DNA of 38,499 bases from a virus. Shown in pieces: positions 20,647 through 24,416 of this stretch. Every line of letters begins with the position of its first letter. Position 1 is the stretch's first letter. The DNA lies in IMG/VR virus record IMGVR_UViG_3300034684_000053, positions 1-38,499 of that record. One strand, 5' to 3'. The translations under genes were made by a program, and so were the position numbers. The notes under the pieces are model-generated. The model worked only from the letters and a program-made list of their open reading frames with translations, was not told the origin of the DNA and ran no database searches.

Positions 20647-21939
20647 TCAAACGCCTCGTGCATCTCGAGCATCAGGCGTTGCTCGACTATAATGCGAGAT
20701 TGTTTTTGAACAATTTCGCATAGCCGACAAATCAGTTGATTGCTGTTCAATGTCATGTTTCCTCCAGCTGCGGTCAAACAAGCCTACAAAGAGTTTGTCC
20801 ATGTTCTGGACTGTTCGATAGGCGTTCTTGTGCATGATGTATCCACGCCATGAATTGTAAGAAATGCGGACATCCTCAAACTCCATCTCCCCGCGATCAA
20901 CCATTGGCTTGAAAGCCTTGAGCTTCCGCCTCATCCGCACGATGCTATCCCTGCACGGTTTCAAAATAACCTTGCCTGTGTCCGTGAGATAGAACCTTGT
21001 TTTCAGAAACTTAAAGCCCTTGCTTAGCTTTACAATCTGGGTCTTGTTTTGATTAAGGACAATACCGACCTTGTCACACTCGGCGCGGATCCGCTCCTGA
21101 CAGTCTTTGAGATAATCTTTGCTTGGATGAATCAAATAGCAATCATCCATATAGCGACCATAGAACTTGATCCTGAGTTCTTGCTTGATCAGGTGGTCAA
21201 TTTTATTCGTGTAGTGCACCGCTAAAATCTGACTGACCTGACTGCCAAGGCCGAGAGATTTAGCCCCAAAGGGCTCAATGAACTGCCGCGTTAGATCGCG
21301 CACGCCTTTGTCTGTGAACTTCTTCTCCAGGCTCTCGTAAATAGGTTCGTGCAGTATGTTGTCAAAATAGCCTTTGAAGTCCATCATCAAAACATAACCA
21401 TCGGCCCCATGCTTGCGGTAATAGCGCTGTAGATGCTTTTTAGCTCCATCAACCGAGAACTTAATTCCTTTGCCTTTAAGGCTGGCGCCATTGTAGTAGA
21501 TCAGAGACCTACTTAACACGGGCACGAGAGCCCTATCACATAAGGCTCTTTGCACGCACCTCTCAGAGATATGCACGCTCTTAATATGCCTTACCTTGCC
21601 GCGTTCCCGGAGAGTGAATTCGGTAAACCCTTTTGTGATATTTTTTCCATTAGAGATCTGTTCTCTGATCTTAACGGTGTTCCTGAAACGGTTAATACCA
21701 TACCGCTGCACGCTGCCTTTCCAGGACACGCCTTTTCTTGACTGGGCATAACCATCTAAAAGCGCGTTAAACGATACAGCCCGATCCAGATTATCGTACT
21801 TTTCGGTTGTACTAGTGACCTTTTTGGTTCTGGCTTCTTTTCTTCTTTGATATCGTCTCTCATGTCGTTCCTTGCTGTTAATTTTAAGACACCTCGTATA
21901 GCACTCGCGCAATGAATAGCTACATAGCAGTACAGGCAT
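20647..21939 (-). CDS. DGR reverse transcriptase
   Basis: A 430-aa reverse transcriptase. Motif A has the catalytic Asp in MMDFKGYFDN (D187), motif C is YMDD (263-266), and motif 4 reads GLGSQVSQ (230-237), the SQ variant that marks DGR enzymes instead of the usual QG. A basic N-terminus (RRYQRRKEARTKK) probably binds the template RNA. It copies the TR transcript into cDNA with errors at adenines; the cDNA then replaces the VR of the tail adhesin. Order on the minus strand is adhesin-VR, Avd, TR, RT, the classic BPP-1 order. ACGGAG lies upstream of the ATG. Confidence 0.95.
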   Translation of the reverse strand: MPVLLCSYSLRECYTRCLKINSKERHERRYQRRKEARTKKVTSTTEKYDNLDRAVSFNALLDGYAQSRKGVSWKGSVQRYGINRFRNTVKIREQISNGKNITKGFTEFTLRERGKVRHIKSVHISERCVQRALCDRALVPVLSRSLIYYNGASLKGKGIKFSVDGAKKHLQRYYRKHGADGYVLMMDFKGYFDNILHEPIYESLEKKFTDKGVRDLTRQFIEPFGAKSLGLGSQVSQILAVHYTNKIDHLIKQELRIKFYGRYMDDCYLIHPSKDYLKDCQERIRAECDKVGIVLNQNKTQIVKLSKGFKFLKTRFYLTDTGKVILKPCRDSIVRMRRKLKAFKPMVDRGEMEFEDVRISYNSWRGYIMHKNAYRTVQNMDKLFVGLFDRSWRKHDIEQQSTDLSAMRNCSKTISHYSRATPDARDARGV

Positions 21940-22015
21940 GAAACGAGCTCCGTATGCGCGTCAGGAAGCTCGCCATGCAAGCAGCGTCCGCCCACCTGCA
22001 TCGAGGTGTATATTT

Positions 22016-22108
22016 ACCCTTTCGGGAAGGTTGCTTTCTCCTTCCACACACTTGAGGACTGATTTCGGTCATGTGACTTACTTTGTCTGCCTTATTGACG
22101 TGTGCAAT
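22016..22108 (-). ncRNA. DGR template-RNA 3' spacer region
   Basis: This lies between the TR and the RT gene, where DGR template RNA carries the segment needed for cDNA priming. On the minus strand it holds two small hairpins, GGAAGG/CCTTCC (22025-22045) and CCC-GAAA-GGG (22017-22026). The assignment follows the known plan of DGR RNAs; the exact ends are not determined. Confidence 0.55.
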
Positions 22109-22208
22109 CAGAGCGGGATCCGATTAGCGTTGCTGGCGTTGTTGTTGTTCGCATTGCCGTTGTTGTTGACATTACAGAAGTTCGTGGTCGAAGCACGCCT
22201 CGGGGACA
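22109..22208 (-). repeat. DGR template repeat (TR)
   Basis: A 100-bp copy of the VR at 22708-22807. It is rich in AAC/AAT codons in the adhesin frame, which cannot become stop codons when the adenines change. It differs from the VR at 16 positions, all adenines here. Flanks CGGATCCCGCTCTG and TGTCCCCGAGGCGTGCTTCG are identical in both repeats. Confidence 0.97.
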
Positions 22209-22229
22209 CAAATTTAATCAGAAAGCAGC

Positions 22230-22646
22230 CTATGCCAGGTCAGAAAACCTTGCTTTGTCTTTTTTCTTCCAGCCTCGAAGTAGTGAAGTCTCACGCACGA
22301 GACTTTCAGCCAGAGGACTCATGATCCGCTCGGGAATTGGCAGGACATCATATGCGTACTGAAACTCTTGGAGGAGGGCTTCGCACGCACAGATCGCAAG
22401 CGTCTGGTACTTTGCTCGCTCAGTTGCTTCCGCAGCTGAGCCGGGGAAAATACTATTGGCAAACGTAATGTTTTGCGTCATTGCTTGCGCCAGGGTAAAG
22501 ATAGGCAGCGCGTAAAAGTTTCTGCTGCGTTTCGGAAAATATTTCTCATTAAGGCATAATCTGGTGATCTCCTTTCTAAGCTCCATGGCGGTATTGTAAA
22601 ATTCCATTTCTGATGCGGCCCTGTGCCGCTTGTAGACGTTACTCAA
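22230..22646 (-). CDS. avd: DGR accessory protein Avd
   Basis: A 138-aa, all-helical, basic protein (MEFYNTAMELRKEITRLCLNEKYFPKRSRNFY...) of the Avd / four-helix-bundle type that forms a barrel, binds template RNA and RT, and is needed for retrohoming. It is placed between VR and TR on the same strand. The best start is TTG at 22646, 7 nt after GGAGG; an upstream TTG at 22670 would put five Gly codons from the VR hairpin into the protein. Its stop lies 21 bp before the TR. Confidence 0.88.
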   Translation of the reverse strand: MSNVYKRHRAASEMEFYNTAMELRKEITRLCLNEKYFPKRSRNFYALPIFTLAQAMTQNITFANSIFPGSAAEATERAKYQTLAICACEALLQEFQYAYDVLPIPERIMSPLAESLVRETSLLRGWKKKDKARFSDLA

Positions 22647-22658
22647 GTGTCCTCCTCC

Positions 22659-22679
22659 CCCGCCGCACAAGGCGGCGGG
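22659..22679 (-). other. DGR hairpin downstream of VR
   Basis: A perfect 8-bp GC stem, CCCGCCGC (22659-22666) and GCGGCGGG (22672-22679), with a 5-nt loop lies 12 bp past the adhesin stop codon and 28 bp past the VR. DGRs have such a hairpin or cruciform behind the VR that raises retrohoming of the target. Confidence 0.82.
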
Positions 22680-22691
22680 AATTAACCGATA

Positions 22692-24416
22692 TTACGATAC
22701 TCGGAAGCAGAGCGGGATCCGATAAGCGGCGCTGGCGGAGTTGTTGCCCGCAACGCCGTAGTAGTGGACATAACAGAAGGACGCGGTCGAAGCACGCCTC
22801 GGGGACAGTTCCCACCAAGATGAGGCGGAACCACCGTTGCCTGCACCCTTTATAATATGTTTTTCCGACCCTGCAAATAGCGGATACTGCTTGAAATTGC
22901 CGGAACCGTAGCCGATCTCTGACCATGACTGATAGCCGAAAACTTCCAGTTCAGCCGGCAGCCATAGTTTGGTCTCGGTATGCCATGCCCATGTTGTGGA
23001 GTCCGCCGCCGCCTTGTTTTCAAGCAGCATCAGTTTCGGACCAATAACAGCTTTGACGTCAGACGGCAATTTGTCATATATACCACCAGTGCCGTTCATC
23101 GCTGTGTAGAGAGAAGATGCCAACCAGCCGCCAATATTTGTGTTCGTCGTGTTGTACTGATAGGCCGCCGACAAACAATCTCTGCTGATGAAATCTATGT
23201 TGTGTTTGCCGTTAGATGCGTAACCGTAGTAAGTGTCGATGCCTGCGACCTCCATGATGACGGTTTCAGATGTCGTCAAGGTAAGCGGCTTCCAGTCGCC
23301 GACGGAAATATCCGAGAAATCACCAGCAAGGCATTTTGTTTGAATTTGCGCCCAAGTGAATGGAATTTCACGGCCATACTCGTAGGTTTTGATCGTTCGA
23401 CCGAACAGTTTACGGTCTAGGATATCAATGCTATCGGTCATTGGCTGGCTGCTGGAAATGAAATTTTTCTCTGTGTAAAGCCTCGTCCCAAGAACATTCA
23501 TGTGCAGCCATATGGATGTATCTTCATTATGCGTGTCGATCGCATCGCTTAACTGCTGGGCCGATACATCGCCTTGTGCTGCAATCAATAACCAGTGGTT
23601 TACATCTGTCGGCAACGTCCCTGCTACACCTGACACTGTGTGCATGTAGTAGCTGCTTCCCTGATAAGACACTTTGTTTCCGATCTGGTATACCTCAGCT
23701 GGATCGAATGCTTCCCAGACTTGCCTGGCAGTCTCTGCCGCGATTCTGTCTGTTTCGGCAGCATCTCTGATGCCTTCCGCGGAAGCTCTTGCTGTCTCAG
23801 CGGACAGTCTTAGCTGTTCAGCACTATCACGGGCAGTTTCAGCTGACAGCCTTAACTGCTCGGCACCATCCCGGGTGGTCTCGGCGGTTTCCCTGAGGCC
23901 TTCTGCATTGTCTCGCGCTGTTTCAGCACTGTCTCGCAGAGTTTCCGCGTCAACACGATCTTCTTCTGCCGAAACACGTGCTGCCTCAGCTGCCACACGG
24001 TCGTTTTCCGCGCCAAAGATTGTGACGATCTGACCTATTACATCTTGATCCTCTTCCGTTGGTGTAAGATCGTGTCCTGCCAATATCCGCACATTCACAA
24101 ACACAATCAGCGTCGGCGTATAAAGATTGTCCTCTGCGAACCGGATATACATCATTAGTGGTGACGCGACTGCTGTTTCCTGTTCGGTTAATGTATGGTA
24201 GATCTTATTTCCGATCACGTCCTCAGCCGGCACGATTGTTTCCAGAGTAACCTCATCGGATCGGACGAATCGGAGGATGACATTACCTGTTATAGCTTCG
24301 AGATCGGCCAATTCAATGACCAGGTGATAGGCGTTGCTGTCACCGATCATGATCTGGTCATAACAGATCTGCTGCTCGATGCCTGTTCTTGTTCTGATGT
24401 TGATGATCTTATTCAA
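22692..24416 (-). CDS. Tail adhesin / receptor-binding protein, DGR target
   Basis: A 574-aa protein. Residues 1-130 look like a BppU-type baseplate upper protein N-terminus (virion attachment); 140-232 is a coiled coil of Ala/Glu/Arg heptads (SAETARDSAEQLRL repeats); about 238-280 is a small carbohydrate-binding-like module (YQIGNKVSYQGSSYYMH); the C-terminal ~230 residues form a DUF6273/C-type-lectin-like fold whose end (537-570) is the variable repeat. It starts with TTG at 24416 after GAGGTGAAAGCCA. Eleven residues differ from the template-coded ones: 545, 546, 549, 551, 552, 553, 555, 557, 560, 563 and 565. It should set host-receptor specificity. Confidence 0.92.
   Translation of the reverse strand: MNKIINIRTRTGIEQQICYDQIMIGDSNAYHLVIELADLEAITGNVILRFVRSDEVTLETIVPAEDVIGNKIYHTLTEQETAVASPLMMYIRFAEDNLYTPTLIVFVNVRILAGHDLTPTEEDQDVIGQIVTIFGAENDRVAAEAARVSAEEDRVDAETLRDSAETARDNAEGLRETAETTRDGAEQLRLSAETARDSAEQLRLSAETARASAEGIRDAAETDRIAAETARQVWEAFDPAEVYQIGNKVSYQGSSYYMHTVSGVAGTLPTDVNHWLLIAAQGDVSAQQLSDAIDTHNEDTSIWLHMNVLGTRLYTEKNFISSSQPMTDSIDILDRKLFGRTIKTYEYGREIPFTWAQIQTKCLAGDFSDISVGDWKPLTLTTSETVIMEVAGIDTYYGYASNGKHNIDFISRDCLSAAYQYNTTNTNIGGWLASSLYTAMNGTGGIYDKLPSDVKAVIGPKLMLLENKAAADSTTWAWHTETKLWLPAELEVFGYQSWSEIGYGSGNFKQYPLFAGSEKHIIKGAGNGGSASSWWELSPRRASTASFCYVHYYGVAGNNSASAAYRIPLCFRVS
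22708..22807 (-). repeat. DGR variable repeat (VR)
   Basis: A 100-bp segment at the 3' end of the adhesin gene, homologous to the TR. Sixteen substitutions, all at TR adenines (to G, C or T), fall in 11 codons; non-adenine positions are all unchanged. The constant end CGGATCCCGCTCTG is the probable initiation-of-homing site. Confidence 0.97.

Follow-up and report, generated by a model that had tools for sequence, protein, structure and literature searches.

A reverse transcriptase (RT) gene lying among the tail and lysis genes of a virus raises the question whether the locus is a complete diversity-generating retroelement (DGR) aimed at the phage adhesin, and whether such an element may still alter the binding of this phage. 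The window, i.e. the whole stretch of DNA that was analysed, is a virus record of 38,499 bases.

Layout and phage context

A real DGR was present at 20647-24416 on the minus strand, with all parts that had been described for it from the sequence alone (the sequence-only reading). Its identification as a DGR was borne out by adenine-only differences between TR and VR, a DGR-type RT, and a match of Avd to its profile. As that reading had stated, target, hairpin, avd, TR and RT were all located on the minus strand in the order of Bordetella phage BPP-1, namely adhesin with VR, hairpin, avd, TR, spacer RNA, and RT; the structured RNA that fills the spacer was absent from its description. The features are as follows.

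22692-24416, minus strand: DGR target, a tail adhesin of 574 amino acids; its stalk (about residues 136-235) is heptad-like and rich in alanine and glutamate, and its C-terminal domain is DUF6273
22705-22807, minus strand: variable repeat (VR), adhesin residues 537-571, with adenine-only differences from TR
22708-22721, minus strand: GC-rich 3' end of VR (CGGATCCCGCTCTG), identical in VR and TR, likely the IMH by analogy with BPP-1
22659-22679, minus strand: hairpin with a stem of 8 bp and a loop of 5 nt, 26 nt 3' of VR
22230-22646, minus strand: avd, with a TTG start at 22646 and AGGAGG upstream
22106-22208, minus strand: template repeat (TR), forming a repeat pair with VR
21869-22095, minus strand: Rfam RT-2 RNA (RF03077), matched over its full length with 143 bits (gathering score 40)
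20647-21882, minus strand: DGR RT, with an ORF open from 21939 and a probable ATT start at 21882

The surroundings agreed with the tail and lysis flanks claimed before, as a tail protein and the tape measure were encoded upstream and a holin and an amidase downstream. An integrase gene followed the holin and amidase genes, downstream of the DGR and on the opposite strand. A temperate life, as proposed, was supported by a Cro/CI-type HTH protein and a BRO/KilAC antirepressor. The portal, the minor capsid protein and the relatives of the portal were of the SPP1 or Gram-positive-phage type, suggesting that the host of this phage probably belongs to the Bacillota.

The repeat pair and its target adhesin

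TR and VR (103 nt) were 83% identical and differed at 17 positions, all 17 of which were adenines in TR (A to T in seven, A to G in five, and A to C in five cases). Adenines account for 30 of the 103 bases of TR, and the probability that 17 out of 17 mismatches fall on them by chance is about 1e-11. The outermost mismatch (22707), just beyond the GC-rich end of the repeat, may mark the repeat boundary; when it was omitted, 16 of 16 mismatches were at adenines. No second repeat pair of this kind emerged when the window was scanned with offsets of up to 6 kb. In the reading frame of VR, TR reads SPRRASTTNFCNVNNNGNANNNNASNANRIPL, its codons being mostly AAC or AAT, and the translation of VR is SPRRASTASFCYVHYYGVAGNNSASAAYRIPLC, with the adhesin stop only a few codons further. 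No stop can be reached from the AAC and AAT codons of TR by adenine mutagenesis, and no codon within the repeat is able to turn into one, this being confined to the TGA at the boundary; about 1e17 protein outcomes of VR are possible. The candidate IMH (22708-22721) and the hairpin (22659-22679) together provide the pair of signals by which a DGR is recognized. A stem of at least 7 bp at most 70 nt from the VR end was found in 84 of 112 related loci, versus 2.4 expected in shuffled sequences.

The target was rightly taken for a tail adhesin. Its DUF6273 match exceeded the Pfam cutoff (4e-7), VR adjoins the C-terminus, and matches to tail-fibre PHROG profiles were weak. In the predicted structure of the C-terminal 245 residues (mean pLDDT of 89.6; above 90 for the VR part), VR maps onto well-modelled strands. 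The best solved match of this domain was 9qa6, an IgA peptidase with an N-terminal DUF6273 domain; matches to C-type lectins were weak (E of 1 or worse). A C-type lectin fold has been reported for DUF6273 targets (PMC10743442), and such a fold would be compatible with the present model, which does not prove it. The closest solved structure of the variable domain being the DUF6273 of a gut bacterial IgA peptidase (9qa6), this domain occurs outside phages and DGRs as well. In most related loci, the VR-bearing proteins had the DUF6273 domain in common, on differing stalks.

The designation of the adhesin as BppU-type was not upheld, its N-terminal 140 residues being devoid of any Pfam match, even at E<=10. 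Nor did a DUF6273 target turn out to be of special worth, as DUF6273 domains have been published as DGR targets before (PMC10743442, PMC11792537). The gut phages nd4/nd12 and the Faecalibacterium prophages described there also have VR at the C-terminus of a DUF6273 domain, although the stalks and N-termini of their targets differ from those of the window adhesin.

Reverse transcriptase, Avd and activity of the element

Profile searches, which the sequence-only reading had recommended for both proteins, matched the RT ORF (20647-21939) with phrog_1423 'Reverse transcriptase' (3e-75) and Avd with phrog_3206 'Avd protein of DGR' (1e-7), the latter supplying the accessory protein that belongs to a DGR. 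The SQ motif noticed before was present as LGSQVSQ, accompanied by YMDD, in keeping with the [ILV]GxxxSQ and YxDD motifs of DGR RTs. The best solved relative was 8ub7 'Reverse transcriptase', presumably the BPP-1 DGR RT; among solved structures, this DGR RT was the closest with 77 bits, against 42 for a group II maturase. In an RT tree, the window RT fell within a group of RTs adjoining TR/VR pairs, and not outside DGRs as would have counted against the assignment; this tree is without a non-DGR outgroup, so that the case for DGR membership is made by the TR/VR pair together with the profile matches. The RT also weakly matched group II, retron and defence RT profiles, as would be expected if a duplicated segment lay next to an RT of another kind, be it from a retron, a group II intron or a defence system, and VR and TR differed by drift. 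Yet all NCBIfam matches were far below their cutoffs, and each of these three readings was rejected. Furthermore, a DGR-specific Avd is present, and the adenine-only differences already refute drift, making this explanation practically negligible.

The BPP-1 DGR (mtd-avd-TR-brt) resembles the present element in order, strand logic, adenine mutagenesis, hairpin after VR, Avd, and a structured spacer between TR and RT. It differs in its RT (about 25% identical), its Avd (no similarity by BLAST), a spacer RNA from another Rfam family, and its target domain, which is Mtd instead of DUF6273. Closer to the window is the DGR of Roseburia phage Shimadzu (LR596903), with the same order, an annotated Avd (29% identical), an RT-2 RNA, an RT and a target domain that are 51% and 38% identical, respectively, and 17 of 18 TR/VR mismatches at A. 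However, Shimadzu carries baseplate J/P2-type (myovirus-like) tail genes and represents a separate phage lineage.

A search for close relatives of the phage with its RT, portal and tail protein had a portal of 62% identity as its nearest match. As no close relative was found, we infer the activity of this DGR from the wider group. Related RT loci were gathered from viral contigs and public genomes, and adenine-specific repeat pairs were sought in them without a prior model; such a pair occurred beside the RT in most of these loci. Between loci with TRs at least 97% identical, 328 of 337 VR differences were at TR adenines and nine elsewhere, the locus pairs behind these counts overlapping, so that the counts are not independent. 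In two loci with an identical TR of 124 nt (L002 and L004), the VRs differed at 16 sites, all TR adenines; their RTs are 55-57% identical to the window RT and grouped with it in the RT tree. An invariant VR, named beforehand as a refuting outcome, was thus not encountered among related loci. The near-confinement of VR differences to TR adenines among relatives with a common TR argues that the wider group is active. Some related loci were arranged differently. One TR was accompanied by two VRs in both L135:3298-5770 and L030:112-5858, and one viral contig (L122:2319-7227) contained tandem DGR machineries, with VR, Avd, TR, RT-2 and RT followed by a second Avd, RT-2 and RT; a VR of this second cassette was not found in the stretch examined.

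Taken as a complete DGR that is laid out as in BPP-1 and carried by a temperate tailed phage whose head is SPP1-like, the element would change phage binding by replacing VR with adenine-mutagenised cDNA, a reading to which a probability of about 95% was assigned. By analogy with BPP-1, RT and Avd would copy the TR RNA into adenine-mutagenised cDNA, with the folded RT-2 spacer as the starting point and the IMH end copied first. Retrohoming would then put this cDNA in the place of VR, close to the 3' end of the adhesin gene, with the IMH and the hairpin behind it as guides, so that about 12 AAY codons in a beta-rich part of the DUF6273 domain may be rewritten and receptor binding altered. The DGR is complete and in all likelihood functional, and it would provide one more example of a phage able to switch its adhesin.

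An unlikely alternative is that the DGR was active once but has since fallen silent in this phage, for instance because the RT, after loss of its ATG, is poorly initiated at ATT. Relatives indeed have an ATG (MTSEERH, MNS) at the position of the ATT at 21882, where the window RT probably starts, rather than at the ATG at 21939. However, GAGGTG precedes this ATT by 7 nt, ATT is usable as a start codon, and RT, Avd, TR and hairpin are otherwise intact, all of which favours a functional element.

The RT-2 RNA between TR and RT

RT-2 is listed in Rfam under a title without function; the present analysis connects it with the template RNA of DGRs, an assignment that a specialist might not expect. 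It was found in seven out of the first seven related loci examined, and BPP-1 carries Phage_DGR (RF03022) in the same slot. Among 49 viral records with related RTs, 47 contained an RT-2 match, and 47 of 49 matches were beside an independently found TR, starting at a median of 5 nt after its end (39 within 11 nt). As these records had been picked by their RT, further genomes were searched by RT-2 alone. These were about 1,460 genomes, chosen around an Oscillospiraceae genome at the level of phylum and order, and around a Lachnospiraceae and a Treponema genome at the level of the family. All 16 new matches above the cutoff were directly upstream of a DGR-type RT, and 15 of them had an adenine-specific TR/VR pair. 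Two matches below the cutoff (L168 and L176), with neither a DGR-type RT nor a TR/VR pair, are probably due to chance. An alignment of 30 spacers showed compensatory changes in 25 out of 31 predicted pairs, and the presence of RT-2 on the RT tree requires only three changes. Of 26 additional loci that do not belong to the RT-2 group, three had a Phage_DGR match, and the other 23 spacers matched no RNA family.

The BPP-1 spacer has been described as adopting a fold by which RT-Avd is recruited and in which the priming adenine is located (PMC12875486). Since position, conservation and exclusivity agree, RT-2 is most likely the counterpart of Phage_DGR, forming the structured 3' portion of the template RNA across a large clade of DGRs, and it may by analogy prime cDNA synthesis. 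A cis-regulatory function in RT translation, instead of a part in the template RNA, is suggested by the location of RT-2, which abuts the RT start, and by the closing helix in the window, the last strand of which contains GAGGTG, the likely Shine-Dalgarno sequence. Against this stand the near-constant distance of the RT-2 5' end from the TR end and the occurrence of the BPP-1 template-RNA spacer, reported to fold and recruit RT-Avd, in the same slot; the regulatory function on its own is thus improbable, slightly more so than a silenced element, although both roles could coexist. The arrangement of RT start and closing helix is not common to all relatives, and it is only a suggestion that, with the ribosome site ahead of the ATT masked, RT translation in this phage would be coupled to the folding of the RNA.

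The fuller proposal is that, in a large clade of DGRs from phages and genomes of Bacillota and Spirochaetota, RT-2 forms the 3' portion of the template RNA that binds RT/Avd and primes the cDNA, and that it represents a second architecture of DGR RNAs next to that of BPP-1, not stated before. This proposal is evenly poised between acceptance and rejection. A literature search for papers linking RT-2 to DGRs found none; it did not reach the likely original description of RT-2, and earlier recognition of this link could exist. A paper from 2017 reportedly introduced many RT motifs. The link between RT-2 and DGRs matters more than the element itself, as it offers a likely role for an orphan structured-RNA family. 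The RT-2 covariance model finds the TR-proximal RNA of this DGR clade directly, and a comparison of RT-2 with the BPP-1 RNA may indicate which RNA features set priming and adenine mutagenesis.

A GUA-hairpin-GAAA motif was located at the 5' end of RT-2 in RT-2 loci and near the 3' end of the BPP-1-type RNA in three others (L018, L063 and L064), reflecting either a shared building block that has moved or chance. A search with the strict pattern found it in only part of the RT-2 set and, at another position, in two BPP-1-type spacers. The Phage_DGR model did not match the window spacer even at E<=10, and neither model detected the RNA of the other at E up to 10; given this and the partial occurrence of the motif, no homology between RT-2 and Phage_DGR is claimed. 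Within the RT-2 clade of RTs, three loci (L091, L114 and L138) had spacers of 136-162 nt and no RT-2 match above the cutoff; these spacers probably contain a reduced or diverged RT-2.
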